Source: a virus
Virus record (IMG/VR): IMGVR_UViG_3300044957_000008
Coordinates: 1-20,289 of that record
Strand: one strand, 5' to 3'
DNA: 20,289 nt
The notes below the pieces were generated by a model, which was not told the DNA's origin, made no database searches, and worked only from the letters and a program-made list of their open reading frames with translations. Within the stretch, counting starts at the first letter, position 1. Each line of letters opens with the position of its first letter. This document shows, piece after piece, positions 1,498 to 20,289 of this stretch. The translations under genes were made by a program, and so were the position numbers.

Positions 1498-1507
1498 AAT
1501 AAATAGT
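1498..1507 (-). promoter_or_regulatory. ACTAYTTAYT element before tail sheath gene
   Basis: Minus strand ACTATTTATT, 26 bases before the sheath ATG in the 55-base gap after the gp15-like gene. It is identical to the element before the scaffold gene. No terminator precedes it, so it would add transcription to read-through from upstream. Confidence 0.5.
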
Positions 1508-1526
1508 TAGTTTTTACCCTAAACGA

Positions 1527-2459
1527 CTAACGCCTGTAAAATGACTTCGAAGTAAAAGGTGGATTCTCATCGAAAATTACTTGCTCCTTACCAAACTTAA
1601 ATGTTACTGCGTTTTCTCTAATCGCCAGTTTAGGTCTATCAGAATTGCTCCCTTCTCCCAATAGATAACCAAGCACCTTTATATCTATCTCTATCAAGAA
1701 AGTCTTTTCATCATCTTGGAAATTAGAGGAATTAAATGTTTGGCTAAAATCTCCTTCGATAAACCCTTCGAAGCGATGGCCGTCATACGACATAAAGATA
1801 TTGTTTATTTGTCCTGTTTTAGTAAAAAATGGTGTTATTAGTTCATTCATTTGCTGCATGTATTCAGTTCTTATCGACACTTTATAATTTACTTGCACAT
1901 ATGTTGGTATTGGCATAGAAAGTGTCTCATAAACTACTTTCCTGCTTGGGTTAACATAATTCTGTTGGCCAGATCCTCTAGGTATGTTAAATGTGCCAGC
2001 AATCCTAGCATTATCAGAATTAGCAAAATTAGCTGTTTTATCTTGTTTTATTCTCCTGGCTACTACAATAGCACCACCCTTTTCATCATTAGTGTTAGGG
2101 ACATGTGCCCAAGCAATTCCTTTAAAATTAGGGTCTTTTGTTACTGAAGTTCTTTCTACATTAATCATCGGAAAGATCAACACACCGTTGTCATCCCTTA
2201 AGCCTCTGTTGTTTTTTATCTGGAATGCTCTTTCTCCGCTAACCCAAATTATTGGTACCTTAGTAAATCCTTTATTTGTATTAACAGATAAATTTAGCTT
2301 TTCATTTAAAAATGTATACATTGCATAATCAATCGTTTCGATTGTCGAAGGCATCAAAGAAACATCTTTTAGAATTTTATCTGCTTCTTCTATGCCAGTA
2401 TGGCTATACTTGCTAGTTTGTATACGGTCTGGTGGAGACAAAGGTTTTTTAGGTGGCAT
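1527..2459 (-). CDS. Probable tail completion / sheath stabiliser (gp15-like)
   Basis: A 310-residue protein whose start overlaps the end of the gp14-like gene by 11 bases. Early residues are polar and Pro-rich (PPKKPLSPPDR). Then follow a helix (YAMYTFLNEKL) and a region VPIIWVSGERAFQIKNNRG and RDDNGVLIFPMINVERTSVTK that looks like a compact beta-rich tail-terminator type fold. The second half holds VQVNYKVSIRTEYMQQMNELITPFF and a beta-rich end. T4 gp15 (272) caps the tail tube and sheath before head joining. Gene order, directly before tail sheath and after the neck genes, fits gp15. The sequence match itself is only moderate in my reading; gp3-like tail terminator is an alternative. Confidence 0.78.
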   Translation of the reverse strand: MPPKKPLSPPDRIQTSKYSHTGIEEADKILKDVSLMPSTIETIDYAMYTFLNEKLNLSVNTNKGFTKVPIIWVSGERAFQIKNNRGLRDDNGVLIFPMINVERTSVTKDPNFKGIAWAHVPNTNDEKGGAIVVARRIKQDKTANFANSDNARIAGTFNIPRGSGQQNYVNPSRKVVYETLSMPIPTYVQVNYKVSIRTEYMQQMNELITPFFTKTGQINNIFMSYDGHRFEGFIEGDFSQTFNSSNFQDDEKTFLIEIDIKVLGYLLGEGSNSDRPKLAIRENAVTFKFGKEQVIFDENPPFTSKSFYRR

Positions 2460-2940
2460 CGAATAGTCCTCTTCTTGATACCTTACAGGTGGCGGCTACT
2501 TCCAATGATTCACCTACTTGACCGAACAACTGCTTTGGCTCTTGCAAAGTCATGATTTCATAATACAAGCCGTCATACTTTACAAAATCACCTTCACGAA
2601 CAAAGATGTCTTGATCTTCTTGCAATCTACGTTGGTGGAAGTGAACAATAATCTCGGCTGCTTTATCTAGACCAAAACCCTCAGTCTGAACGGTACCGTA
2701 GCTAGACCACTCAACCAAAGCATACACTCTGACAGGTGGAAGAAAGTTCTTTACTAGTGCTTCGCCATACAATGGATGATAGTTTGTGGTTTTGATGTCG
2801 ATTGCATAATAATAGATTTCTTGTCCAATGACTCTTTCTAGCAGTTCGTCATTGACTTGCTTGACAAGATCTTTTTCCTTTTGTCCAAAAAACAAAGGAG
2901 GTGGTGCATAATCTGGTTCAACCCATTTGTTCTGAGCCAT
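2449..2940 (-). CDS. Head closure / neck protein (gp14-like)
   Basis: A 163-residue protein starting 3 bases after the preceding stop, with an AAGGGTGA ribosome site. The segment ERVIGQEIYYYAIDIKTTNYHPLYGEA (key residues: GQEI, TNYHPLYGEA, near 34-62) begins a beta-rich body, and VREGDFVKYDGLYYEI (about 114-129) is the typical strand-turn-strand seen in phage head-tail stopper proteins. It is smaller than T4 gp14 (256). It lies between the adaptor-like gene and a gp15-like gene and overlaps the latter by 11 bases, so it is placed in the head-closure step that retains packaged DNA. The fold reading is inference from pattern. Confidence 0.8.
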   Translation of the reverse strand: MAQNKWVEPDYAPPPLFFGQKEKDLVKQVNDELLERVIGQEIYYYAIDIKTTNYHPLYGEALVKNFLPPVRVYALVEWSSYGTVQTEGFGLDKAAEIIVHFHQRRLQEDQDIFVREGDFVKYDGLYYEIMTLQEPKQLFGQVGESLEVAATCKVSRRGLFDAT

Positions 2941-2943
2941 TTA

Positions 2944-4278
2944 TCACCCTTGGTAAATGAGAAGAGGAATCTTCTCTTGCACTTTCGTAACACTATCCAT
3001 GAGTGTTGCATTTGTTTCTGCAAGTTTCGCATAGGTAAGTTCATCAAGTGTAGCCTTGAGTTCTTCTTTTAGTTTCTCTTGTTCTTCTCTGGCGGAAGAA
3101 ATAAGGTCTGACCCATTTAGCTGAACTGAATCACCGGGGATGGGGATTGCACCAAACTTAGAACGAATAAGACCAAGCGTTTCTTTTACCAATGCCAAAG
3201 CGTAACGACGAATCCATTGTTTACCAATAGCATTGATACTGGAGTATGGAATGTTATCAAATGGCAATGTATTCATGTTTGAGATCCCCTGCTCAGAACC
3301 TTTCTGCGAGCCAGAAACTGGTGACCAAGGATCCGCACCGTCATCAAACGTAAACTCAAACCACATGTGTTGTATTGTACTTACTTCTGGTCTTGGAAAA
3401 ATACGAAGTTTGTTATTGAAGATTTCATAAGAATAATGTGACAGTCTAGTGTAAATGTGATCTTCATAAGCCATAGCTTGCAACTTGTTTTGCCATGCTG
3501 GGATGATTTCGAATGTCGTATCATCAGCGAACTGGCCGTAATAGTTTAGATTACCAACTACGTTTAGGCCACCATAGTAGCCGTAGAAACGCCACACAGC
3601 AGCGGGTGACTTATAGTATACACGACGTATTGTTATTCTGTTGCTAGAAGCACTAACATAAGAAGCAGAATAAGCTACAGCACCGCTGGTAGCTGGTTCC
3701 AGATTATTAGCAACATTGTTGGCGATTATCTGCTGCAAGTCATAATCTTGTATGCTGCTAGTCAAAGCAAAAGAAGCTTGATAATGCGGTGTGGTGCCTC
3801 CTGCGACACCGGCCTCATTAGCCAACCCAATAGCCACCTGACGGGCATACCCCACCTCAAAACGCGGATAACGAAGATTTATGCTAGCACTAGAGAGCGA
3901 TGACTCTAGTAGGTTGCCATCTTCATCAAAGGATCCGGTTGTTTTGCCAAGCAAGCTTGGAAGAGCATTCTTTGATTGATGGAGATTCATGATGTATGAA
4001 TACTCTAAAGTTGCTTCCTCATAAGCAGCGTATACGTTACCGGGAGTGATTTCTAGATCGAGAACATCACCACCTAACTTCTTATAAACAAAAGATACTT
4101 GGTCAGAAGCACCCGAGATAAAGTTGACATCGTATCGCGGAGATGCTGGATCAACATAAATACCGAATGGATACAAAACCAAGTTACCAGCACCATTACC
4201 AGTGGTAGCAGTTGAGCCGGTCGAAGTTAGAATAGAAACATTAGTTCTGCTTGGCGGCGAGTATGAAGGGTATGCCAT
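2944..4278 (-). CDS. Neck / head-tail connector protein (gp13-like)
   Basis: A 444-residue protein that opens a three-gene connector operon. Its N-terminus is polar, followed by a region LDLEITPGNVYAAYEEATLE (about residues 75-94) and IMNLHQSKN that resembles the helical entry of phage head-completion adaptors, where an acidic EEA helix docks near the portal. The middle is beta-rich and aromatic (VWRFYGYYGGLNVVGNLNYYG near 229-249 is the most distinctive part). The C-terminal 70 residues are a helix rich in Glu/Lys. T4 gp13 (309 residues) is shorter. The gp13 role is assigned from gene order and general features, not from a sure sequence match. GGAGG ribosome site. Confidence 0.82.
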   Translation of the reverse strand: MAYPSYSPPSRTNVSILTSTGSTATTGNGAGNLVLYPFGIYVDPASPRYDVNFISGASDQVSFVYKKLGGDVLDLEITPGNVYAAYEEATLEYSYIMNLHQSKNALPSLLGKTTGSFDEDGNLLESSLSSASINLRYPRFEVGYARQVAIGLANEAGVAGGTTPHYQASFALTSSIQDYDLQQIIANNVANNLEPATSGAVAYSASYVSASSNRITIRRVYYKSPAAVWRFYGYYGGLNVVGNLNYYGQFADDTTFEIIPAWQNKLQAMAYEDHIYTRLSHYSYEIFNNKLRIFPRPEVSTIQHMWFEFTFDDGADPWSPVSGSQKGSEQGISNMNTLPFDNIPYSSINAIGKQWIRRYALALVKETLGLIRSKFGAIPIPGDSVQLNGSDLISSAREEQEKLKEELKATLDELTYAKLAETNATLMDSVTKVQEKIPLLIYQG

Positions 4279-4295
4279 TTGTGAACCTCCGCTTC

Positions 4296-4305
4296 AGTAA
4301 GTAGT
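4296..4305 (-). promoter_or_regulatory. ACTAYTTAYT element before neck gene
   Basis: Minus strand ACTACTTACT, directly after a terminator and 17 bases before the ATG of the 444-residue gene. It is identical to the element inside the protease gene. Confidence 0.5.
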
Positions 4306-4316
4306 TTAGGAACAAA

Positions 4317-4344
4317 TAAAAAAGCCGACCCCGAAGGATCGGCC
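4317..4344 (-). terminator. Rho-independent terminator after 136-residue gene
   Basis: On the minus strand GGCCGATCC/GGGTCGGC pairs around a TTCG-type loop and is followed by TTTTTTATTTG. It lies 22 bases after the stop of the 136-residue gene and 12 bases before the element of the next gene. Confidence 0.92.
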
Positions 4345-4365
4345 TAAGAGATAAACCAGATCTAA

Positions 4366-4776
4366 TCAAGGAAAACCGGGATAGGTTCCTGACATAGCTA
4401 GAATTAATACGTCCGAAACAAGTCCCCCACCTGTTGGGGCCGAATCAAACTTGTATGTAACAAATGTTTTTTTAGAACCAAGAACTGTCGAACTAGCTGT
4501 TGAGAATGTCGGTGACAAAACACGACCTGTTGAGCAGTTTAGCAATACATCATAGTCAGAACCATTGACAAGCAACAAGCTTTGACCATTCTTCATGGCG
4601 GCAATGTCGATTGTACCTGTAGCTGCGCTACCACCACCATAGAGCCAAAACCCTGCATCAACGCTGATTGCACCAAGCGAACCAGAACTTTGGACTACTG
4701 TTGCGTTTGCGTTATAAACAACAATGTTCATGTTCTGTGGTAGTGTACTTCTATTGTATTGATTTCTTTTACCCAC
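4366..4776 (-). CDS. Small beta-rich virion protein in its own transcription unit
   Basis: A 136-residue protein with a GTG start and a GGAGGG ribosome site. The basic N-terminus (GKRNQYNRS) is followed by hydrophobic strand-like segments (NIVVYNANATVV, QSLLLVNGSDYDVLL, KTFVTYKF, VSDVLILAMSG) and Gly/Ser/Thr loops, typical of a small beta-sandwich. One cysteine is present. It directly follows the major capsid gene, and terminators lie both before and after it, with a candidate promoter at its front, so it can be made as a single-gene transcript. That arrangement suits a highly expressed capsid decoration or cement protein, comparable in role to T4 Soc; this is inference, and no family match is seen. 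Confidence 0.85.
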   Translation of the reverse strand: MGKRNQYNRSTLPQNMNIVVYNANATVVQSSGSLGAISVDAGFWLYGGGSAATGTIDIAAMKNGQSLLLVNGSDYDVLLNCSTGRVLSPTFSTASSTVLGSKKTFVTYKFDSAPTGGGLVSDVLILAMSGTYPGFP

Positions 4777-4797
4777 GATAAGACCCTCCGTTTGTAC

Positions 4798-4807
4798 AGT
4801 AAATAGC
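4798..4807 (-). promoter_or_regulatory. ACTAYTTAYT element before 136-residue gene
   Basis: Minus strand GCTATTTACT, 17 bases downstream of the capsid terminator and 21 bases before the GTG start. It differs from the shared pattern only at the first base. The terminator-then-element arrangement supports a transcription start here. Confidence 0.5.
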
Positions 4808-4824
4808 GTGCTTTTATCCCAAAA

Positions 4825-4857
4825 GAAAAAGGCCCCGATCCCGAAGGACCGAGGCCA
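4825..4857 (-). terminator. Rho-independent terminator after capsid gene
   Basis: On the minus strand a long GC-rich stem of GGCCTCGGTCC with GGATCGGGGCC closes on a UUCG tetraloop, followed by TTTTTC. One or two internal mismatches are present. It separates the capsid gene from the following small gene. Confidence 0.92.
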
Positions 4858-4884
4858 GAGGTTAGCTAGAAGCTAAAATCTCTA

Positions 4885-6603
4885 TCAGGCTCCGCTTTCA
4901 CCGAGAAGACCACGGACGATAACGAGGCCGTACATGTCTGGGCGAACCATCTTCTTGGCGTAGCGGGTCATGACGCCCTTGCGAGGTACGAAGTCCTCGT
5001 TACCAAAGATGGTAGGAGTGACTTGTAGTGGGACGTAAGGAGCGTAGACGTAGCCGCTCTCTAGGAAGCTACCACCACGGCGACCGACCAATAGAAGGTT
5101 GCGTGGGAAGTATGGATCAACGTGAACGTCGAACTTCTTGGAGATTGAGCCGACCTTGACTGCACCGATTGAACCGCGTTCATCGTCAGCAGTGACGGAG
5201 GCACGGAATCCAGCGGTGAACTCTAGGACGTTGGCAACTTCGGGTGAGGTCACGACGAAGTTTGCGCCACCACGAAGAGTCTTGCGATGGATTTGAGCCG
5301 AAACATCATTGATGGTTTCGATGAGGGTTTCGTACCATTGTGATACTGTACCGGTGAACTCTGGGGCAGCAGAGCTTGCACCAACTTCGACACCAGTTGT
5401 GCGGTTGACGAATAGACCAGGTGAACGTGACCAGTAGAATGTACCGGCGGTGGCACCCTTGATCAAGTCCTCAAGGATTTCGCGGTCGATTTCGAGAGCG
5501 ATTTGTTCAGAGAGGATTGAGGTCAACTCGACTTCTGCATCAAGGTTGTGGTAAGCGTTGAGATCTTGTCCCAACTCTGGGGTCCACTTGGCCTTGAGCT
5601 TCTTGGTACCGGCTGTAACAGCGATTGAATCAACTTTGATGTCGATTTCTGGAATGTTGGAGTTACCTTCTAGGCCCCAGCTTGTTGGGGTTGTGTTAGA
5701 ACCAACAACCGAACCAACAGCAGAAGCTGCTTCGAAAACGTCTGGTTGCAATGGCCATGTAGCAGCGCGGCTACCGGCGTTATCGTCTAGGGCTGTAGTA
5801 GCAACTGAACCATCATACGAAGCAAATACTACATAAGCAACGGTTGTTGAAGAACCGCTTAGTCTTGTTAGACGGCGGACCAAGCTACCGCTAGCTGGTG
5901 TAACAGTCAAAGCAACGAGGTCTGGTGAAGCTAGATTAGCACCAGCGAGTTGAGTTAGATCGACAGTGTGAACTGAGAATGTGGTTGAGCCTGAAACGAA
6001 GTCTGCGTCGAAACGAACTAGAGCGTCGTTTGTTTGGCTGGCACCGAAGGTACCAGATGCAATAGCTGCACCGATGGTAATGTTACCAGAACCAGTTGGG
6101 TAGGCATAGCCATTGTTTAGAGCGTAAGGACCAACTTCAGCGTTGGTACCGGCTAGAAGAACACCACCAGTGATTTCACTGGCTACGCGGCCACCACCGT
6201 ACAATGAAGACGCGGCAGCGTATCCAAGACGACCGGTTGTGGAACCAGTACCAAGCTCACCAGAAACGGTGAAGTCGAGGAAGAAAATGAGACCTGATGG
6301 AAGGCTCATGGGTTGTACTGAGACTAAATCGTTGGCCAATAGGCCAGCGAATACACGGCGAACTAACGGAAACGCGACAGCGGCAAAGCCCTGTACGTCG
6401 CCTGCGCCCATTGATGTTGACTCCTTGAGGAGTTGCTTAGCTTGATTTTCTAGAAGACGAGCCATACCAGCACGGGTATGTTCGCCGCTGAGTCCTTCGA
6501 GAAGACCTGTCTTCTCCCATTTTGAGAGCAGAGCAGCACCTTCTTTCTGGAGGTCGCGGTTAACGACGCCTTCAGTCAATCTTTCAATAAGATTACGAGA
6601 CAT
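4885..6603 (-). CDS. 23: Major capsid protein (gp23-like)
   Basis: A 572-residue capsid precursor. The ATG at 6603 is preferred over an in-frame ATG at 6663 because AAAGGGGGTG lies just before it and the upstream extension falls inside the scaffold gene. The N-terminal 61 residues are a helical delta-peptide, with a likely cleavage at Leu59-Lys60-Glu61 before Ser62; T4 gp23 is cut after residue 65. The mature protein opens with a region like T4 gp23: FPLVRRVFAGLLANDLVSVQPMSLPSG (position about 78-104, of which key residues are VRR, ND and VQPM.PSG). A Gly/Ser/Thr-rich section at about 150-310 probably forms an insertion or outer domain. A terminator follows 28 bases after the stop. Confidence 0.95.
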   Translation of the reverse strand: MSRNLIERLTEGVVNRDLQKEGAALLSKWEKTGLLEGLSGEHTRAGMARLLENQAKQLLKESTSMGAGDVQGFAAVAFPLVRRVFAGLLANDLVSVQPMSLPSGLIFFLDFTVSGELGTGSTTGRLGYAAASSLYGGGRVASEITGGVLLAGTNAEVGPYALNNGYAYPTGSGNITIGAAIASGTFGASQTNDALVRFDADFVSGSTTFSVHTVDLTQLAGANLASPDLVALTVTPASGSLVRRLTRLSGSSTTVAYVVFASYDGSVATTALDDNAGSRAATWPLQPDVFEAASAVGSVVGSNTTPTSWGLEGNSNIPEIDIKVDSIAVTAGTKKLKAKWTPELGQDLNAYHNLDAEVELTSILSEQIALEIDREILEDLIKGATAGTFYWSRSPGLFVNRTTGVEVGASSAAPEFTGTVSQWYETLIETINDVSAQIHRKTLRGGANFVVTSPEVANVLEFTAGFRASVTADDERGSIGAVKVGSISKKFDVHVDPYFPRNLLLVGRRGGSFLESGYVYAPYVPLQVTPTIFGNEDFVPRKGVMTRYAKKMVRPDMYGLVIVRGLLGESGA

Positions 6604-6635
6604 ATTTATCACCCCCTTTATTTTTAGGATTTGCT

Positions 6636-7790
6636 TTACTTGATGCCAGCTAGCTTTTTCCAATAATCGAGTTGACCGAGATCAACGCTTTCGTTTAGAT
6701 TACGCTTGCTGGGAATGGTGTGAGAAGGTCTGTTGATAGCTTCGTGAAGGGACTCAAGTTTCCTGCCGGTAGACGTTGCTCCAGCAGCCGCTGCACTTTG
6801 AAGGGTTTCAAAAATAACCTTCGCTTCTGTAATAGTTTGGGCCTTACGAATAGATTCGACAACATTTTGTTTTTGTCGCTCATTCAACGAGGTATTCATA
6901 AGAACTTTATTTTGGTACAGAAGTTTTGCATTGCTAAGGTTTACTTCTTCGAGCTTTACCTTCAATGCGGAAACTGTTTCGCCAAGAACGGTATTCTGGG
7001 ATTTCAATGATTCATTGACTCCAGCCAGTTTCTTCATACCGTCTTGCAAGTCTTTTAGTTCTTGCTGACGCTTGGTATCAGCCAAACGAGCAAGATTGAC
7101 TTTCTCTTGTTCTTGTCGATCTTTTTCTGGACGACCGGCCCAACCGCCAGCATGTTGTCCGTCCATAATGTCAACAACTAGTTCTTCTACGAGAGTGAGA
7201 AGATCTTCATCGATTTCTTCGTGAGAGTCCTCTTCCTCATCAAGCTCATAAGTTTCATCTAGTTCTTCTTCCAAAGATTCTGGATCTTCCATTTCATTCA
7301 TGAAACGACGAACTTCCTCCATTAGACCAGTCATTTCTGGTGATACGGGAGGTGCTTTCTTTTCGACAGAACCTAGATCAAACTCGACCTCTTGTGGTTC
7401 TTCATCTGATTCGCTAGAATCATCTGCCAATACTTCGAATGGATCCTTTAGATCTTCTGGTGGTATCTCTTGGTCCTCGTATGCAGATAGCATTGTACGA
7501 AGGTCATCCATCGAAACAGTAATAACGTCTTCGTCGCCACCGGCATTTGGTTCGTTAGCTGTATCCAATGTAGCAGCATCTGGGATCTCTTCTGGAATAG
7601 CCTCTGGTTCGGGAGCAGCACCGCCAGCATCCATAGGGTCTGCGGCTGGTTCTTGTTCGTTGAGGAAAGAATCAATAGCTTCTTTCAGTTCGCTAGCGTG
7701 CTTTTCGATAACTTGATTTTCTGCAAATCGTAAAGCTGCTTCGCGAAGCTCTTTTGCGTCGATAATGGCTTGTTCCAAAAGTGATGACAT
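6636..7790 (-). CDS. 22: Prohead scaffold/core protein (gp22-like)
   Basis: A 384-residue, strongly acidic protein directly before the major capsid gene, the place of T4 gene 22. Residues 1-47 are a charged helix (SSLLEQAIIDAKELREAALR). Residues about 48-215 are Glu/Asp/Pro-rich and low in complexity. A long Lys/Glu/Gln coiled coil covers about 222-330. The conserved-looking C-terminus ends LGQLDYWKKLAGIK. Scaffolds of this type form the inner core of the prohead, bind the capsid shell by their C-terminus, and are cut to peptides by the gp21-type protease; several (L/I)-x-E sites are present. T4 gp22 is 269 residues. The ribosome site is ACGGAG. The end overlaps the longest reading of the capsid frame, but not its likely start. 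Confidence 0.88.
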   Translation of the reverse strand: MSSLLEQAIIDAKELREAALRFAENQVIEKHASELKEAIDSFLNEQEPAADPMDAGGAAPEPEAIPEEIPDAATLDTANEPNAGGDEDVITVSMDDLRTMLSAYEDQEIPPEDLKDPFEVLADDSSESDEEPQEVEFDLGSVEKKAPPVSPEMTGLMEEVRRFMNEMEDPESLEEELDETYELDEEEDSHEEIDEDLLTLVEELVVDIMDGQHAGGWAGRPEKDRQEQEKVNLARLADTKRQQELKDLQDGMKKLAGVNESLKSQNTVLGETVSALKVKLEEVNLSNAKLLYQNKVLMNTSLNERQKQNVVESIRKAQTITEAKVIFETLQSAAAAGATSTGRKLESLHEAINRPSHTIPSKRNLNESVDLGQLDYWKKLAGIK

Positions 7791-7823
7791 TTAGATACTC
7801 CGTTACTAAATAATGAAACTCAA

Positions 7824-7833
7824 AATAAATAGT
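7824..7833 (-). promoter_or_regulatory. ACTAYTTAYT element before scaffold gene
   Basis: Minus strand ACTATTTATT in the 64-base gap between bS21 and the scaffold gene, 33 bases before the scaffold ATG. It is a member of the recurrent element set and a candidate late promoter for scaffold and capsid expression. I see no terminator between bS21 and this element. Confidence 0.5.
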
Positions 7834-7854
7834 ATTTAGTTATACCAAAAACCA

Positions 7855-8079
7855 TCACTTCCGATTCTGACGCAGTTTCTTCAGAACCTTTTCTCTACGA
7901 CGCTCTTTCCTCTTACGCTTATCGGAAGGCTTTTCGTATTCTAGAGAGCGTCGATACTCTTCGATGATTCCGCTTCTCTTTACTTTCTTCATGAACTTCT
8001 TGATTGCTGTTGTGATTGATTGACCTTCGCGCACCTCAACAGTAACATGTGCGGGTCGTGAACTATTATAACGCTTCAT
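7855..8079 (-). CDS. rpsU: Phage-encoded ribosomal protein bS21
   Basis: A 74-residue, very basic protein with the bS21 pattern along its length: a short beta-like start VTVEVREGQSITTAIKKF (residues 12-29), then KRSGIIEEYRR (34-44), then the signature YEKPSDKRKR (48-57) and a Lys/Arg-rich helical tail. E. coli S21 has 71 residues and the same YEKPxxxRKR core. bS21 binds the small ribosomal subunit near the anti-Shine-Dalgarno end of 16S rRNA and acts in initiation. Phage copies are known, notably from aquatic phages. It has an AAGAAGGA ribosome site and lies between a probable decoration gene and the scaffold gene, so it is expected to be expressed late. It could replace or compete with host S21. 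Confidence 0.93.
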   Translation of the reverse strand: MKRYNSSRPAHVTVEVREGQSITTAIKKFMKKVKRSGIIEEYRRSLEYEKPSDKRKRKERRREKVLKKLRQNRK

Positions 8080-8101
8080 AAATCCTTCTTATTATTTATT
8101 A

Positions 8102-8485
8102 TCAACCGACGCCAGCAGAACCGGACCAATTTTCTGATAGGTGCGATGAAGCAATTCCGGTTAGACCTGCAATTACCGAGGCGGTAAATTGAGTTCCGCC
8201 GAATTCTGCTGCTGGCGAAATGAAAACTGATGTAACCCTGTAATCTGCCGAGAATGATTCGGATCCTGATAAGACTAAAAAGTTTGTTCCGTTTAATCCG
8301 TTTTGGGAGAAAGCGACTTTCATGTATCCGTCGGAAGCAATGTTCTTAACAATAATAAATTTAGTTACCTGTGGAAATGAAATTTGTTGTGTTGTTGAGG
8401 CACTAATAAATGTTAAGTGAGGTTGGGTGCTTACTTGATAAGAACCAACATTGTTTAATCCAGCAGAATAGATAAAGTTTGACAT
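8102..8485 (-). CDS. Small beta-rich protein, possible head decoration
   Basis: A 127-residue protein rich in Ser, Thr, Gly and short hydrophobic strands (VTKFIIVKNI, TNFLVLSGS, VTSVFISPA, FTASVIAG), with no cysteine and few charges. Composition and strand pattern suggest a compact beta-sandwich like those of capsid decoration proteins. The start is well defined: ATG preceded by GGGAGG. It follows the C1q-like gene by 30 bases and is 22 bases ahead of the bS21 start. No family is recognised; the decoration role is inferred from composition, size and position among head genes. Confidence 0.83.
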   Translation of the reverse strand: MSNFIYSAGLNNVGSYQVSTQPHLTFISASTTQQISFPQVTKFIIVKNIASDGYMKVAFSQNGLNGTNFLVLSGSESFSADYRVTSVFISPAAEFGGTQFTASVIAGLTGIASSHLSENWSGSAGVG

Positions 8486-8515
8486 AGTTTTCCTCCCAGG
8501 TAATTAGTTTGATTT

Positions 8516-10015
8516 TTAGAAAAATCCGTTTCCTACTGTTCTTCCAGAAGTTGGAGATCCAAAAGAACCAGCAGAGAATCCGCCGGATCTGCTACCGAAA
8601 GAAGTTATTCTTGCAGTTCCTCCTCCACCACCGCCACCACCGCCGCCGCCGCCAACGGATCCAACTTTGAAAATAGTAAAAGTAGTTCCAGCTAAGACGC
8701 CCAAACCATTTGCACTAATTGCGTTATTAGCGGCACAAATAGAAACACTATCGTTTGCACTTAAAGAGTAAACTCCAACCAAAGTTGTTTCAAGCGGGTC
8801 TCCGCTTCCATCAACTCTACAGTTTGAAGTGTTTAGTGTGGTGCCGTCAGCACAAGAACTAGCGTTTTTTCTTAAACTAAAATTAACAGATTCTACATCA
8901 AAATTAGTGGCGGAAGAGCTAAGAATAAGATTGCTAGAAACAAAATAATATCCACTAGAACCGACTGTAAAAGTGCCATTAGCAGAATCGTATGTGATAG
9001 CATTTGCTGTTACTAACGGCGTAGCGCTTTTTAAAATTATAGCCGACGAACCAGAAGCAATATTGGGAGCGGCTGCGGTTGTTCTCACCGAAGCATAGTT
9101 TTCGTCATTTACTTCAAAAACAGAATAAGCCGAAGAAGATAACGCATAAAGAGTTGCAGTTGTAGGTAAAATAGTTGCTCTTGTGGTATTTGTGTCACTT
9201 AGCTGCTGTAAAATGCCAGCATTTACTTCATACGGATTGTTGCCAGTGGTTGTGCTACCAATCATCTGAGTAACGCTGCTGTGTATGCTAACATCGTTTT
9301 TATATGTTCTGTTTGTTAAACTTCGGTTTGATGAATCCGATTGGAATAAGTAGTAGTTTGCGGATAAGTAAAAAAGTTTTGTATTACCTGGGGAATCAAA
9401 TTTAAAATTATTATTTGCTCCTGTTACGGAAAAGTCAGAAGACTTTTGTAATGTGTAATGCGTGTTCAGAGTTCCGGTGACGAAAGGGTTGTGTTCTGCT
9501 GCTGTTGCTGTTGTTCCACCGATTCTTGTTGCTACTGCGTAAGAATCGCCAACTTTAATAACTGTCAGAGTTGTGCCTGTTTCGGCAAAAACATCAGTTG
9601 TAGCATTATTAGAAACCAGGGTAGCTGTTATTTTAGAACCTGGACCTATAGACCCAAAGTAGGTTGTTGTAACTTCCATACCATTTGTTCTTACGGCTCC
9701 CGACCCTGCCTCAAAATATGCCACAAATTGTGCGACAGTAGAGTTATCTAATTTAATTTTTACTGTTGGATTTCTGTCTGACGATGCAGATGTAGAGTCT
9801 ATAAAACAACTAAAAATTACAAAGTAGTTTCCACCGTCACCAATTGTGATTTCACCTGTGCTACTATCAAAAGTGTTTGCTCCGCTAGTGTCTGCAACAT
9901 AAGATATGTCTGGGGATGCGTGATTGTCGCTATCAAAGACATTTACATCAGTGTTTCCAATACCATTCGTATTGGACTTGTTAGTTATTGAGACGAACTT
10001 ATGCTCTATTGCCAT
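8516..10015 (-). CDS. Three-domain C1q/TNF-like surface protein with poly-Gly tail
   Basis: A 499-residue beta-rich protein with three tandem units of roughly 145-155 residues. Units 1 and 3 carry the C1q-like jelly-roll pattern of GxFTVGxxGYYFV (for example ITIGDGGNYFVIFS near 56-69 and FTVGSSGYYFVSS near 350-362). Each unit ends with a similar strand: TVIKVG, SVFEVN and TIFKVG. Unit 2 is more diverged. After unit 3 there is a run of 12 glycines and a 35-residue Gly/Ser/Phe-rich tail ending GNGFF. C1q-like domains trimerise and are common in phage fibres and head decorations, so a host- or surface-binding role is likely. The ribosome site is weak (GTGAG). Its place among head genes favours a head fibre or decoration over a tail fibre. 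Confidence 0.85.
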   Translation of the reverse strand: MAIEHKFVSITNKSNTNGIGNTDVNVFDSDNHASPDISYVADTSGANTFDSSTGEITIGDGGNYFVIFSCFIDSTSASSDRNPTVKIKLDNSTVAQFVAYFEAGSGAVRTNGMEVTTTYFGSIGPGSKITATLVSNNATTDVFAETGTTLTVIKVGDSYAVATRIGGTTATAAEHNPFVTGTLNTHYTLQKSSDFSVTGANNNFKFDSPGNTKLFYLSANYYLFQSDSSNRSLTNRTYKNDVSIHSSVTQMIGSTTTGNNPYEVNAGILQQLSDTNTTRATILPTTATLYALSSSAYSVFEVNDENYASVRTTAAAPNIASGSSAIILKSATPLVTANAITYDSANGTFTVGSSGYYFVSSNLILSSSATNFDVESVNFSLRKNASSCADGTTLNTSNCRVDGSGDPLETTLVGVYSLSANDSVSICAANNAISANGLGVLAGTTFTIFKVGSVGGGGGGGGGGGGTARITSFGSRSGGFSAGSFGSPTSGRTVGNGFF

Positions 10016-10023
10016 CTATTGTC

Positions 10024-10470
10024 TCACTTTGTTTTGCCTTTCACTAAGGCATTCCAAGCGTTACCGCCCATTGCAACAATACTAGAGATGTCTATACCGG
10101 GATCATTCGGAGAAGTTCCGGCTAATGGAGATCCCAATGCGCCCTCTGTAGGCTCGGAAGGTAAATCATTGTGACTGACACCTTCGAAAATGTCAACGCC
10201 TCTAAATGAGTCCTTGCCAATAGCATCCAATAACTCTTTCTTTTGTCTCTTGAGTTCTAGGAGCTTTTGTTCTTCTGAAGGGTCTCTAGCAACAGGTGCA
10301 GCAGAAACCGATTTCCTTGATTCTGTTACCATATTGCCACTCATACCCTTAGCAACCTCAGATACAACAGTAGAAAGAAGTCCCTCTTTTATAAGGACTT
10401 CTTGTACTGATTCTTTGACTAGTTCTTTTACCAAAGGTCGTAGTAACTTCTTTAGTTCTGCCGGATTCAC
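10024..10470 (-). CDS. Small probable prohead core/internal protein
   Basis: A 148-residue protein with a GTG start at 10470, one base after the preceding TAA and preceded by a GAGAGG ribosome site. An amphipathic Leu/Lys/Glu helix fills residues 3-29 and ends Ile27-Lys28-Glu29 before Gly30-Leu-Leu, again an I-x-E-G-L site suited to the prohead protease. A second helix with Leu/Lys/Glu heptads covers about 65-85 (EEQKLLELKRQKKELLDAIG). The C-terminal part is Gly/Ser/Pro-rich. It lies between the large internal head protein and the C1q-like protein. I infer a core or internal head component; no family match is claimed. Confidence 0.83.
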   Translation of the reverse strand: MNPAELKKLLRPLVKELVKESVQEVLIKEGLLSTVVSEVAKGMSGNMVTESRKSVSAAPVARDPSEEQKLLELKRQKKELLDAIGKDSFRGVDIFEGVSHNDLPSEPTEGALGSPLAGTSPNDPGIDISSIVAMGGNAWNALVKGKTK

Positions 10471-10471
10471 A

Positions 10472-12829
10472 TTAGCCTCTCAAGACTGTTTTGATACCGG
10501 CCAAAACTGACCAGCGATTTAGCTCAACAGTTTCGCGCATCACGACACCAGCATCTTCTAGGTAATCACCTAGGTAGTCACTGATGGTCTCCATAGCATC
10601 GCGGATAATCTCAGGATCGATTGGTTGTTCGCCATGAGCAGTATGTCCTGTTTCTAGGATGTCGCGAAGGTCAGAAATAAAGAACTTATCTGTTGCTAGT
10701 TCTTGAGCCTTTGGTTGATTCCTGAACTCTTTCTCGAAGTCAACTTTACCTTGCTTCATCTTTAGGTATAGTTGTTTACGTTGATCGGTTGTCATCTTGA
10801 AGAAATCAAACTTAGAACGTTCTTTTTGTGGATCTTCGGGAAGTCTCATTAGTAAGGCTTTTTCTTCTGGAGATAGAGCGGCGATAAACTCATCTGGATT
10901 ATCAAATAGTTGCTTACGGCTGAACCTTAGAGTCTTACCGGCTTTGACAACTGTAGTGTCTGAGCCAAACTCGATTACCATACGAGCAATCTTGCCTCTG
11001 TTGTCACCGGGACCGGCAACGTCACGATCCATTGCTGGACCGACTTTCTCTCTTGCATCTTGTGCTGCTTTAGCAGAACGAGTTGCACCACCGGCACGGG
11101 TTGTATCAGATTTCTTAGCCGGGACGGCATCAGGAGTCTTGCGAGGCTTCTCTTTCTTCTTCTTTTTCTTCTTTTTCTCAAGAAGATTCTCAAGATTTAG
11201 ACCTTCCTTGACTACGAAACCTTTGTTCTCAAGTTCTTGCTTGATACGGTTTGTAACGTCTTTGACGGCCCAATTTGGTAATCCCACATCGCCACCCATC
11301 AGCTTATCGACTAGATTCATGTCTTTTTTGCCTCTGCCAATAAACTTGTGTGGTCCCTTTCTGAAGATGTGGATTACTTCCCCATTACCACCAGACTTCT
11401 TTTCTTCTTCGCCTGCGCCGCCTTCAGCACCACTTTCGGCACCACTTTCAGCACTATCACTGGAGTCATCTTTGGTAATACCCGAATCTGGAAGGTCATC
11501 TAGCTTTTCCAAGATACCATTTAGTGCTGCAAGTCTAGACGAGCTAAGTCCTTTGACACGAAGAAGCTTGATTCCTAGTCCAGTCAAAGCTGCGGCTATA
11601 CCTAGCTTCACAAGTGCAGGACCACCGATAGCTAGCATGACACCTGTTCTTGTTACCTTCTTGACCAGTCTGTCTTCTAGGAAACTTTGCGACACATCCA
11701 CGAACTCAGTGGCCCATTCTTTTGCTATGACCTCACCTTCTTTTACACCAAGCATGTCATTTCCGCCAGAACCTACACCGATCATGTCGTTTCCAAAATG
11801 CTGCATAGCCAACTTTACTGCTTGACCAAAAGTGGCGTTTGCTGACGCGTTATCATGCATCCAGTTTAGAGCTTCTGCTAGTTTTCCAGAATGAAAAGCT
11901 ACCATTGCATCAAGATTCTCAACACTACCAAATTTACTAATGATAGTATCATAAACCTTACTAAATGGCTGGCCATAGTCAAATGCTTTATTCCCCAGAC
12001 CAGTTATGAATCCTAGGAGTTTGATTAGTCCCGCGCCCTTGGGGATTGCAACCTTCCTCGCGGCCTTCAAGACCCTAGTTGCTACTGGGTATGTCTCGCT
12101 AACTATCTCGGGGTCATTGATCCATTCTGTAAAGATGTTTTGTACGAAATCGCTTTGTGCTGCAAATCCTGCAAGGATAGCTGCTGCGCCACCTCTTGCC
12201 AACATTCCGGGTAGAAGATCGCTCTTCATTGACTTCATGACAGAAGTTTCTTTTGTACCAGACAATTGTGGTTGTTCTGCTTCTTCTTGTTCCCTTAGCA
12301 ACCTGAGTTTACGTCGAATACGCTTGTTGGTTTCGATGATCATTTTATGATGTTTCTTATGAACACCTTCAGTAAAGTGTTTGTAGCCATCATACAAATC
12401 ATAATCAATAAACTTTTGCATAATTGCACGAAGGTCTTTTATGATAATGTTAGCAACTTCAGCAGGCAGTTCGCCTTTTTCGACTGCGGCCTTTACGTTG
12501 GCATAGAAATCATAAATTCCACCCGCTTGTTGTAAAAATTCTTCTTTGTTTTCTTGATTGGGGAAGCCAGCAGCCTTTAGTTCCTTATACATGGTTCCAA
12601 GAGCTTTGCTAGATTCGGAATCCGCCTTAGCAAGAATAGCATCTACTTGAGCTTCAGCTTTCTTGGTACGCTCGCCACGACCCATAATACCGCCGCCCTT
12701 TTCCCAAGTGCCGATAAGACTAAATACTTTATTTTTGATCTTATCCCAGAGTCCTTCATCGATTCGACTTTCACGAAGATGTCTCTCGATTATTTCTTCT
12801 AGCACTTTTCTATCGACTTTATTATTCAT
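10472..12829 (-). CDS. Large probable internal head protein (785 aa)
   Basis: I do not recognise a family. The N-terminus (residues 1-25) is a charged helix ending Ile23-Asp24-Glu25 before Gly26-Leu-Trp, a good prohead-protease site. Then come a helical domain (to about 190); two hydrophobic Ala/Gly segments at about 210-222 and 398-418, which could insert in a membrane or pack as helices; an acidic Ser/Gly/Glu linker (about 455-485); and a run of eight lysines near 550 in a very basic linker. The C-terminal helical domain ends RWSVLAGIKTVLRG. The C-terminal LAGIK matches the scaffold C-terminus. The gene sits between protease and scaffold. I infer an internal, protease-processed head protein, possibly ejected with DNA. 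Coupled to the protease by ATGA. Confidence 0.88.
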   Translation of the reverse strand: MNNKVDRKVLEEIIERHLRESRIDEGLWDKIKNKVFSLIGTWEKGGGIMGRGERTKKAEAQVDAILAKADSESSKALGTMYKELKAAGFPNQENKEEFLQQAGGIYDFYANVKAAVEKGELPAEVANIIIKDLRAIMQKFIDYDLYDGYKHFTEGVHKKHHKMIIETNKRIRRKLRLLREQEEAEQPQLSGTKETSVMKSMKSDLLPGMLARGGAAAILAGFAAQSDFVQNIFTEWINDPEIVSETYPVATRVLKAARKVAIPKGAGLIKLLGFITGLGNKAFDYGQPFSKVYDTIISKFGSVENLDAMVAFHSGKLAEALNWMHDNASANATFGQAVKLAMQHFGNDMIGVGSGGNDMLGVKEGEVIAKEWATEFVDVSQSFLEDRLVKKVTRTGVMLAIGGPALVKLGIAAALTGLGIKLLRVKGLSSSRLAALNGILEKLDDLPDSGITKDDSSDSAESGAESGAEGGAGEEEKKSGGNGEVIHIFRKGPHKFIGRGKKDMNLVDKLMGGDVGLPNWAVKDVTNRIKQELENKGFVVKEGLNLENLLEKKKKKKKKEKPRKTPDAVPAKKSDTTRAGGATRSAKAAQDAREKVGPAMDRDVAGPGDNRGKIARMVIEFGSDTTVVKAGKTLRFSRKQLFDNPDEFIAALSPEEKALLMRLPEDPQKERSKFDFFKMTTDQRKQLYLKMKQGKVDFEKEFRNQPKAQELATDKFFISDLRDILETGHTAHGEQPIDPEIIRDAMETISDYLGDYLEDAGVVMRETVELNRWSVLAGIKTVLRG

Positions 12830-13434
12830 TTTTTGCTCCCCAATAAATCATCCAACATGAAATCAATAGTAAGTAGTTTATTTGTATTTCTTTTGCCTTC
12901 ATACACAACGTTATCCATGAAGGCTTTTGGTGTAGAAGGTTCTGATACAATGTCAAAACAAATAAGTTGGAAATCATCTTCTACGATTGTCTGTCCACCA
13001 CGATTAGACACAGAACCTAAACCGCGTGAAGAAATACCAATCTTGACACCATCATTGACCAAGGCTCTAAGAGTTTGACCAGATGGGGTAGAAAGAACCT
13101 TTACTTTACCCATAAGTGTTTTACCATCCCACCACATGTCCGTAACCATGTGTGAAGAGTTACGAAGATTGACAACAGAATCTTCTGGGTGATCTAGTTC
13201 ACCAACTGCGCGACGATCACGAACAACATCCATGTAACTATCTACTTCTCTCTTGAGAATAGGGAATGGGTATACACGACCGTTACCATTTAGTCTTTCT
13301 GCTTCGTGGCATTTGCCAACAAGATAAAGAGCCTTACCCTCTGACATCTGCTTTTTCTCAGATTCAGTGAGAACATCGAGACACATCCCATCGGGACAAA
13401 GTTCATAGAACTCTTTTAGTATTTGTTTTGCCAT
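12826..13434 (-). CDS. 21: Prohead core protease (gp21-like, S80 family)
   Basis: A 202-residue serine protease that matures the prohead by cutting scaffold, capsid and internal proteins after (L/I)-x-E. Family marks are clear: an N-terminal NGNGRVYP segment (50-56), the catalytic His82 in GELDHPE, a Ser135/Ser136 pair in GISSRGLGS (133-141), one of which is the nucleophile, and the C-terminal DIVSEPSTPKAFM block (161-173). Length is close to T4 gp21 (212). It is the first gene after a terminator and a putative promoter element. Its TGA overlaps the ATG of the 785-residue gene (ATGA), so protease and that probable substrate are coupled. Confidence 0.95.
   Translation of the reverse strand: MAKQILKEFYELCPDGMCLDVLTESEKKQMSEGKALYLVGKCHEAERLNGNGRVYPFPILKREVDSYMDVVRDRRAVGELDHPEDSVVNLRNSSHMVTDMWWDGKTLMGKVKVLSTPSGQTLRALVNDGVKIGISSRGLGSVSNRGGQTIVEDDFQLICFDIVSEPSTPKAFMDNVVYEGKRNTNKLLTIDFMLDDLLGSKK
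12868..12877 (-). promoter_or_regulatory. ACTAYTTAYT element inside protease 3' end
   Basis: Minus strand ACTACTTACT, identical to the element before the 444-residue neck gene. It lies within the protease coding sequence, 38 bases before the start of the 785-residue gene, so it could give that gene its own transcription start. Being within coding sequence, chance is harder to exclude. Confidence 0.38.
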
Positions 13435-13456
13435 TTTATACCTTTATGGTTATCAA

Positions 13457-13466
13457 GATAAATAGT
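13457..13466 (-). promoter_or_regulatory. ACTAYTTAYT element before protease gene
   Basis: Minus strand ACTATTTATC. It lies 13 bases downstream of the terminator and 22 bases before the ATG of the protease gene. It belongs to a set of near-identical elements in this window, and position suggests a late promoter or a transcript-start signal. The last base deviates from T only by Y-type variation. Confidence 0.5.
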
Positions 13467-13478
13467 TGTGTATTTGCC

Positions 13479-13514
13479 AAAAAAGAAAGCCACCCTGTTT
13501 AGCAGAGTGGCTTT
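13479..13514 (-). terminator. Rho-independent terminator after 194-residue gene / mini-ORF
   Basis: On the minus strand an 8-bp stem AAAGCCAC/GTGGCTTT, with an inner CTG/CAG extension, is followed by CTTTTTT. It ends the transcription unit that begins upstream of the terminase genes and lies just before the putative promoter motif of the protease gene. Confidence 0.85.
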
Positions 13515-13604: not shown

Positions 13605-14189
13605 TCACCTCCTTCTTTTGGATTCTTGTGTAATACGACGGACGATTGATTCTGCGATTCTAGACGCGGAACGATTTAGTGATTCGGCTGTTCCGACAGG
13701 AGAGCCAGAGGCACTATACGCGCCGCCGCGACCACCGATACCACCGGCTGTTGGTTGTATCATTCCTCTATCTCCACCGGAGAAAGCTTTCATAGATTGC
13801 TCAGGAGTTTTCTGACTCTTTACCATTTCTCCGTAATCGCTCAAATCGATACCGGCTGCTCTAGCTAAAGTTTCGATTACGCCAAGCGCGATTTGTTTCG
13901 ACTGTTCAGATGATCCAAGAGTCTTAAATGTAGATTCGTACTTAGAACTTAGAGTTCTTGCAGTGCTAACGGCACTTTCCAGATTGGCTTTTGCAGCACC
14001 AGAAGCGGCGGCGGCGCGAACATCGCCTGCGGCTTTACCAACAGCAGAACCTACTGTCTTTGCTGCTCCTCCCAATGCTCCTGCGGCACCTTTGATGGCT
14101 CCACCAACCGCGCCGAATAATCCTTCTTCAATAGCAGCTTGTACTTCTTCGGCAACGATTGCCTTTAGTTGAGCTTCAGTGAGTTTCAT
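13605..14189 (-). CDS. Probable internal or prohead-targeted protein, Ala/Gly-rich
   Basis: A 194-residue protein. The first 22 residues form an amphipathic helix starting MKLTEAQLKAIVAEE, ending at Ile20-Glu21-Glu22 before Gly23-Leu-Phe. The I-x-E pattern is the preferred cleavage site of T4-type prohead proteases, and a short N-terminal helix of this kind resembles the capsid-targeting peptides of T4 internal proteins. After it comes an Ala/Gly-rich stretch (about 23-65) with a repeat-like appearance, a helical middle, a Gly/Ser-rich loop near 145-165 and a basic C-terminus ending SKRRR. It is coupled to the membrane-protein gene by TAATG. I infer a processed internal head protein; there is no direct family match. 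Confidence 0.85.
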   Translation of the reverse strand: MKLTEAQLKAIVAEEVQAAIEEGLFGAVGGAIKGAAGALGGAAKTVGSAVGKAAGDVRAAAASGAAKANLESAVSTARTLSSKYESTFKTLGSSEQSKQIALGVIETLARAAGIDLSDYGEMVKSQKTPEQSMKAFSGGDRGMIQPTAGGIGGRGGAYSASGSPVGTAESLNRSASRIAESIVRRITQESKRRR

Positions 14190-14521
14190 TATTTATCCCC
14201 TTTATTATCAATAGATTTATGAGTAAACCGTAAACCTTCGTCGTTTACTAACATACTAAGTAGGTATGAAGTTCCCGCTGAAGTCCAGCCACAAATCAAA
14301 AAGTTTGCAACTGACTGGTCAAAACTAAATAGTTCGGTATACGGAGAAAGTAAAAACAAAAACCATCCCGCATGGAATCCGAAACACAGTGGACAATGGA
14401 ATAGCTTACCAAATCCACCTAACCATTCTTTTGATGGTCTTACCCAATTAAAAATAGAAGCAAAAACAACAAGGTAAGTAAGCCCATAAGAGCAGAGAAT
14501 GAACCAAGCAAGCTGTAGCAT
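14189..14521 (-). CDS. Small integral membrane protein, DUF1360-like
   Basis: A 110-residue hydrophobic protein. The start chosen is the ATG at 14521, preceded by a strong GGAGG ribosome site 6 bases upstream; an upstream in-frame ATG at 14626 lies inside the preceding gene and adds a non-hydrophobic segment, so it is unlikely. Three membrane segments are visible at about residues 2-24, 48-62 and 72-92. The signature CPLCFGFHAGW (residues 43-53) resembles the Cys-x-x-Cys-x-G-x-x-x-G pattern of DUF1360 membrane proteins, which occur in phages and bacteria and have no established function as far as I know. It sits within the head genes and overlaps the next gene by one base (TAATG). A role at the host membrane late in infection is possible but unproven. 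Confidence 0.8.
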   Translation of the reverse strand: MLQLAWFILCSYGLTYLVVFASIFNWVRPSKEWLGGFGKLFHCPLCFGFHAGWFLFLLSPYTELFSFDQSVANFLICGWTSAGTSYLLSMLVNDEGLRFTHKSIDNKGDK

Positions 14522-20032: not shown

Positions 20033-20289
20033 TTTTATTGGGCCTCCACCCGGTTTTCCATCTTTCTTCTCTATCCTCTACCCACTGAACATAGCAGTTA
20101 TAACAACAATCGTATTTCTTTATGCAGAAATCGTCTTTGGCATTATTCTCTGCTTTATTGCAGATTGGGCATGGGATAAAAGAACTTTCTCTAGTAAGTA
20201 GTTTTTCGGTTATAAAAAACCCGTCAGCAAAGACTTTTCGCTCTTTGTCCCAAGTATACTGATCTTTTTCTTTGAGAAGTTTCAGTTGT
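20016..20289 (-). CDS. Zinc-ribbon-like small protein, N-terminus outside window
   Basis: This reading frame is open from the right edge of the window and stops with TGA just inside the next gene, overlapping it by 17 bases. The visible 90 residues hold two CxxC pairs, Cys40-Pro-Ile-Cys43 and Cys62-Tyr-Asn-Cys65 (numbered from the window edge), with extra cysteines at 55 and 61. This arrangement suggests a structural zinc site. The region after it is rich in Trp, Arg and Glu. It lies immediately upstream of the terminase genes and is probably co-transcribed with them. I do not recognise the family; a nucleic-acid-binding or packaging accessory role is only inferred from the zinc-ribbon look and position. 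The start codon is not in the window. Confidence 0.75.
   Translation of the reverse strand, partial: QLKLLKEKDQYTWDKERKVFADGFFITEKLLTRESSFIPCPICNKAENNAKDDFCIKKYDCCYNCYVQWVEDREERWKTGWRPNKNGNNT
20193..20202 (-). promoter_or_regulatory. ACTAYTTAYT-like element upstream of terminase genes
   Basis: Minus strand ACTACTTACT inside the zinc-ribbon coding sequence, 160 bases before the start of the 180-residue gene. It is an exact copy of the element before the neck gene, but its distance to a start codon is long, so its function is doubtful. Confidence 0.2.

Follow-up and report, generated by a model that had tools for sequence, protein, structure and literature searches.

In T4 the late promoters consist of the eight-base box TATAAATA at -13 to -6 (PMC1524935; PMC2988020). 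No upstream element is found in them (PMC2988020), and in the T4 GenBank record the gp45 protein is described as "in effect taking the place of a -35". The late promoter of Aeromonas phage Aeh1 was reported as CTAAATA starting at -12 (PMC1524935). A "fused late-transcription sigma" has been noted in the T4 field as not found in nature (PMC2988020). For the Far-T4 phages, the T4 core genes for transcription regulation were not detected in the description of the group (PMC4360716), and no promoter is described in the Far-T4 literature that we searched.

The window analyzed in this study is an IMG/VR virus fragment of 20,289 bases with all genes on the minus strand. The terminase, portal, head maturation protease, ribosomal protein S21, major head protein, neck protein and a tail-sheath-like protein are encoded there, the last one being named from gene order and resemblance without a family match. 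Flavobacterium phage immuto, Microcystis phage Mel-JY01 and Rhodothermus phage RM378 are the nearest isolates to its portal and capsid proteins, and by sequence match its T4-type capsid, portal and terminase are nearer to RM378/immuto-like phages than to Tevenvirinae or cyanophages. Judged from these matches, the window is a piece of an uncultured Far-T4 phage. Phages of this group are abundant in lakes and seas, and relatives of the window head protein are encoded on at least 597 IMG/VR stretches, of which 80 were sampled here; the genes in these relatives were called with a simple ORF picker and their start positions are approximate. The ribosomal protein S21 gene (7855-8079, minus strand) lies within the late head gene cluster, and is also present in relatives and in Mel-JY01.

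A ten-base element recurs in front of late genes of the window. We regard it, with a probability of roughly 0.85, as one half of a bipartite promoter for Far-T4 late genes, namely its downstream box. As predicted from the sequences, this promoter has the geometry of the T4 late promoter plus a -35-like element without T4 counterpart.

A directional two-part signal before late genes

The six occurrences listed in a preliminary description, starting at 1498, 4296, 4798, 7824, 12868 and 13457, all lie where they were placed, on the minus strand, which is the coding strand, and their distances to the start codons were correct. The degenerate form RCTAYTTAYY has nine matches in the window, all nine on the coding strand, versus 0.78 expected, and none of 100 dinucleotide shuffles of the window reached this number. 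Three further exact matches, at 9345, 15959 and 20193, had not been listed before and each is found within an ORF. An unsupervised k-mer count of the intergenic regions in the 80 relatives returned ACTATTTA as the most enriched 8-mer, present in 195 of 445 upstream regions versus 5.4 expected. Upstream of genes, 192 copies of it are in gene orientation and only three are of its reverse complement TAAATAGT, and coding sequence has 27 copies on the same strand and 10 antisense; ACTAATTA and ACTACTTA are other forms of the box in the relatives. The enrichment check, run on the window shuffles and on the 80 relatives, therefore gave a box far commoner upstream of genes than expected or than in coding sequence. 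The box is a real and directional element. A literature search for the motif in the context of phage late promoters, covering few subscription journals, found no report of it.

Alignment of 263 upstream sites revealed the core ACTA[T/A/C]TTA and a second element, GGCTTTT, located 14-20 bases upstream of the core. In an expectation-maximisation fit, one exact spacing took 63% of the spacing weight and the spacing one base closer took 18%, with about 16% of the sites being without GGCTTTT. Because the boxes of further loci are mostly one homologous site or absent, these loci could not be used to test the -35 element independently, and cross-validation was performed by contig, with training on half of the contigs and testing on the other half. 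On held-out contigs, 45-49% of the sites carry GGCTTTT at the exact position versus 2-3% at control offsets. A recognisable -35 element is missing at roughly half of the individual sites, and non-structural sites carry it less often. Downstream of the box, 83% of the sites have a purine at position 13, counted from the box's first base, and few C residues are seen in the stretch leading up to it.

The preliminary description had taken a terminator followed by the element as the layout of a promoter. This layout is correctly described at three sites, 4296, 4798 and 13457, and it is promoter-like; it is, however, partly due to the separate -35-like element, unseen at that time, which coincides with the terminator. 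At terminator-bearing sites in the relatives, the G-run and T-run of the terminator fall on the position of GGCTTTT. A terminator artefact as the source of GGCTTTT was nevertheless rejected, since the element is seen not only with a hairpin but also at the 203 of the 263 sites without one.

The box is distributed unevenly among the genes. In the large syntenic contigs it stands directly upstream of the gp13/14-like (neck) gene in 16/16 cases, of the sheath gene in 14/15, of the tube gene in 11/13 and of the baseplate wedge gene in 10/13, but never of ssb (0/15), recA (0/16), helicase (0/14) or gp55 (0/13). TTGACA-type promoters are found instead before primase (10/13) and ssb (9/15), and early genes appear to use ordinary sigma70-like promoters. 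Near gp55 genes the box was seen in only one of 148 upstream regions, against 265 of 470 in structural regions. Since the box precedes virion genes and not ssb, recA, helicase or gp55, its distribution is that of a late promoter. The portal, terminase and capsid genes of the large syntenic contigs have no box directly upstream, and appear to sit in operons with a box further upstream. The earlier suggestion of a promoter-like late-gene signal is thus supported both by the two-part signal and by its placement before late genes.

Predicted promoters of the window

Scanning the window with the two-part model gave eight sites above the threshold, 8/8 on the coding strand, where 200 shuffles gave a mean of 0.27 and a maximum of 3. 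They comprise the five intergenic sites already listed, the sites at 8499-8508 and 20193-20202, and a weak one at 14324. All features below are on the minus strand. The predicted late promoter before the tail-sheath-like gene (start 1471) consists of the box ACTATTTATT at 1498..1507 and the -35-like element AGTCGTTT at 1521..1528 (score 6.5, consensus spacing), both scoring well, with the predicted +1 at 1494. The head-tail adaptor (gp13-like) gene, starting at 4278, is preceded by the box ACTACTTACT at 4296..4305 with the predicted +1 at 4292; its -35-like element GGCTTTTT at 4319..4326 (score 6.0) overlaps the 3' arm and T-run of a terminator at 4322-4345, and the orthologues of this gene have the box in 16/16 contigs. 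A weaker box, GCTATTTACT at 4798..4807, with G as its first base and C at the predicted +1, lies before a gene starting at 4776, and the accompanying -35-like element TTTCTTTT at 4821..4828 (score 6.7) is in a terminator tail.

The box ACTATTTATT is found again at 7824..7833, upstream of a gene that begins at 7790 and leads on to that of the major head protein (start 6603). Its predicted +1 is 7820, and the -35-like element TGGTTTTT at 7847..7854 reaches a score of 7.6 at a site that has no terminator. The site at 8499-8508 (ACTAATTA), overlooked in the preliminary description, possesses the upstream element and is 15 nt from box to the start codon at 8485. Here the box ACTAATTACC (8499..8508, predicted +1 at 8495) combines with the -35-like element CGGATTTT at 8521..8528, which scores 7.7 and is one base closer than the main spacing, to a two-part score of 18.6. 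Before the head maturation protease gene (start 13434), the box ACTATTTATC at 13457..13466 has its predicted +1 at 13453 and a weak -35-like element, TTCTTTTT at 13480..13487 (score 2.9), in a terminator tail.

The top two-part score of the window, 20.9, belongs to a probable late promoter inside an ORF, with the box ACTACTTACT at 20193..20202 and the -35-like element CGGGTTTT at 20216..20223 (score 9.6). It is placed 709 nt ahead of the terminase start at 19493, a distance comparable to the 597-1051 nt between terminase and the nearest upstream box in several relatives. A possible promoter box, ACTATTTAGT at 14324..14333, is located inside an ORF 136 nt before a gene starting at 14189, with a weak -35 and a two-part score of 15.8. 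Five of the six sites listed earlier are thus convincing, but the one at 12868..12877 (ACTACTTACT) is doubtful: it lies inside the protease ORF, upstream of the gene it was assigned to, and has no -35-like element (-35 score -8.5). The upstream element is likewise absent at 9345 and 15959, and all three strings may be chance matches.

Register and comparison with described promoters

When ACTATTTA is set at -13 to -6, the purine peak falls on +1 and GGCTTTT on -33 to -27. The Far-T4 signal has in common with the T4 late promoter an eight-base box, its predicted position relative to a purine start (as read from the purine peak), its direction, its location before virion genes and the presence of a gp55 homologue. 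However, the box shares four of eight positions with TATAAATA (T-11, A-10, T-7 and A-6), a -35-like GGCTTTT is present where T4 late promoters have none, no T4-type clamp was found in the Far-T4 contigs and isolates searched, and the gp55 homologue has an extra domain in place of the C-terminal tail of T4. The earlier description of the element as different from the strict T4 box is supported. In the relatives, TATAAATA itself is not enriched and has only three upstream occurrences. With the Aeh1 late promoter the box shares, in register, the C at -12 and TA at -11/-10, whereas TTTA replaces AATA at -9 to -6 and the -35-like element is outside the reported Aeh1 consensus.

The late-type boxes of immuto, Mel-JY01 and RM378 are alike in the core TATTTA before late genes and in the purine at the +1 position, but differ in the bases at -13/-12, and GGCTTTT was sought and not detected in the 9-15 sites available from each phage. 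An apparent -35 in Mel-JY01 (27-36% of 11 sites) was discarded, as the scoring sites are mostly terminator-like or at shifted spacing. Two elements in -35/-10 geometry and a purine start are also features of sigma70-type promoters; neither element, however, fits TTGACA or TATAAT, and the TTGACA type is used before early genes in the same phages. In the early region of immuto (L135, L136), many genes have AGTTGC followed by TATATTTAGGTATC, a class separate from the late GATATTTATAATAA boxes, and similar to the TTG / TAnnTTTG promoters known from hosts among the Bacteroidetes. On these comparisons, we regard the two-part late signal as a variant form of the T4-type late promoter.

Candidate readers of the two elements and alternative explanations

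A search with Pfam sigma region 2 for a phage sigma factor gave nothing above the cut-off. A gp55 homologue was found in the relatives through a weak match to PHROG 234 and a full-length match to the immuto homologue; this gene, like that of the small sigma-4 protein described below, is outside the window and was seen only in relatives. Its presence makes plausible the earlier suggestion that a diverged gp55-type sigma reads the element. Compared with the gp55 of T4 and cyanophages, the C-terminus of the homologue has an additional domain of about 60 residues in place of the T4 tail, which is modeled as three helices in a helix-turn-helix-like arrangement. When the model is compared as a whole with known folds, its top match is weak (9a50, listed as RPSB-RPOC, E 0.019), and we take this entry to be B. 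subtilis sigma-B. No sequence similarity was found between the C-terminal domain and sigma region 4; its position and predicted shape suggest that it may be sigma-4-like. The putative recognition helix GLNTKQVVNNLNKMR of the domain hardly varies among the phages that have the -35 element, and is diverged in immuto and Mel-JY01, for which no -35 was detected. This diverged gp55 with the extra C-terminal helical domain is likely the sigma factor for the box. In RM378, the sigma factor Rm378p144 (L139:48329-48928, minus strand) has the look of a small sigma of the ECF type that includes both region 2 and region 4, and differs from the gp55 homologues of other Far-T4 phages.

The T4/cyanophage clamp family (phrog_223 or PF02768) had no match in 14 contigs and the three Far-T4 isolates, with T4 and Syn33 as positive controls, nor did the bacterial beta clamp, for which bacterial genomes served as positive controls. 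A clamp supplied by the host, or a phage clamp of very divergent sequence, could act at the late promoters. A protein of about 1140 aa (L357:16030-19449, minus strand) reads by eye like a bacterial DNA polymerase III alpha subunit with a PHP-type start. Together with the lack of a match to a T4-type clamp, this suggests a replication machinery unlike that of T4.

In the proposed mechanism, host RNA polymerase with the diverged gp55-type sigma of the phage would open the DNA at the box (-13 to -6), transcription would begin at the purine at +1, and a second DNA contact would be made at -33 to -27. Less certainly, this contact would be made by the additional helical domain at the C-terminus of the gp55 homologue, and both halves would then be recognised by a single polypeptide; such a scheme would replace the single box, gp33 and gp45 sliding clamp of T4. 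We tentatively propose that the gp55-type sigma of this large marine group of Far-T4 phages might be a two-domain late sigma which reads both -10 and -35 and can do without gp33 and without a phage clamp. Sigma factors that are split or have two domains are known from B. subtilis SigO/RsoA and the ECF sigmas, where a region-2-like and a region-4-like part read the two halves of a promoter; the region-4 role of the Far-T4 gp55 domain, in contrast, is a predicted one.

The second contact may also be sought in other proteins of the same phages. One is a small sigma-4 protein of about 76-108 aa with a Cys-rich N-terminal half and a clear helix-turn-helix of sigma region 4.2. Its gene comes third in a conserved series, after guaB and the gene of an RHH-like protein, and directly follows the RHH-like gene in 69 of 74 loci. 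The protein at L142:4001-4261 (plus strand) and its relatives (alignment A3) match at least 561 IMG/VR stretches and have no convincing isolate homologue; the Cys-rich half is possibly metal-binding, and many copies end in a short hydrophobic motif, for example LLF or ILF. The preceding RHH-like protein of about 108 aa (L090:3256-3579 and L357:14879-15211, both on the minus strand, and relatives; alignment A5) has a ribbon-helix-helix-like N-terminal half and a strongly conserved C-terminus, IFDILEKEHPEL.

If the sigma were split, with gp55 on the -10 half and the sigma-4 protein as a gp33-like half that binds the -35 DNA, this would agree with the clear region 4 match, with the very common occurrence of the protein in these phages and with its not being found in immuto, Mel-JY01 and RM378, in which the -35 was not detected either. 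However, six contigs have no sigma-4 gene at the conserved place or elsewhere on the contig, one of them being 163 kb and spanning the conserved gene order. These are G020 and five others; four of the five large contigs initially scored as lacking the gene end before that region. The six contigs retain GGCTTTT at 32% of their sites versus 4% at control offsets, as compared with 44% in phages with the gene, and good scores were obtained for every one of their neck and sheath promoters. Because contigs without its gene retain the element, the sigma-4 protein is, as far as these genomes indicate, not required for the persistence of the -35. It was dropped as the sole -35 reader, and the split arrangement is improbable, even though the contigs may be incomplete and a relocated copy is conceivable. 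The RHH-like gene occurs in phages both with and without the sigma-4 gene, and RHH proteins as a class bind DNA, so a contact by this protein deserves consideration, as does one by the C-terminal domain of the host polymerase alpha subunit or by another phage protein. Against such factors, GGCTTTT is single and asymmetric, whereas RHH proteins usually bind palindromes, and it lies at the place of the sigma -35 contact with an almost fixed spacing to the box; we consider a reader of this kind rather unlikely.

Readings in which the element is no phage late promoter fare worse. The box lies 17-60 nt ahead of start codons, usually with the Shine-Dalgarno sequence after it, as would suit a signal for RNA processing, mRNA stability or another post-transcriptional function in the leader. 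Yet the distance to the start codon varies while that to the second element is fixed, and the purine at the T4 +1 position, the placement after terminators and the late-gene specificity all speak for a promoter; the processing site offered as an alternative in the preliminary description leaves both the second element and the purine peak without explanation, and we give this reading very little credence. Were the element an ordinary promoter read by an alternative sigma factor of the host, two elements about 15-16 bp apart and a purine start would be accounted for. This is nonetheless very unlikely, as TTGACA-type promoters stand before the early genes of these phages and the TATTTA core before late genes is common to Far-T4 phages of unrelated hosts (Flavobacterium, Microcystis and Rhodothermus), which a phage factor fits better. 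Resemblance to the T4 late promoter had earlier been recognized only on the opposite strand, where TAAATAGT has TAAATA in common with TATAAATA and would drive antisense transcripts. This does not hold, since T-11, A-10, T-7 and A-6 are shared in register in the gene direction, the genes of the window are on one strand, and the orientation count of 192 against 3 leaves the opposite-strand promoter a negligible chance; it was rejected.

With the two-part late promoter, the Far-T4 group gains a late promoter consensus and a candidate sigma factor, and a clear contrast emerges between a -35-like element here and the sliding clamp used by T4 in its place. If the tentative two-domain gp55 is true, it would functionally be the "fused late-transcription sigma", and the T4 superfamily would have two solutions, with clamp-dependent late promoters without a -35 as only one of them. 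The standing question of why the late sigma of T4 is split and clamp-dependent becomes testable by comparison, and the box provides a simple marker of late operons in many uncultured contigs.
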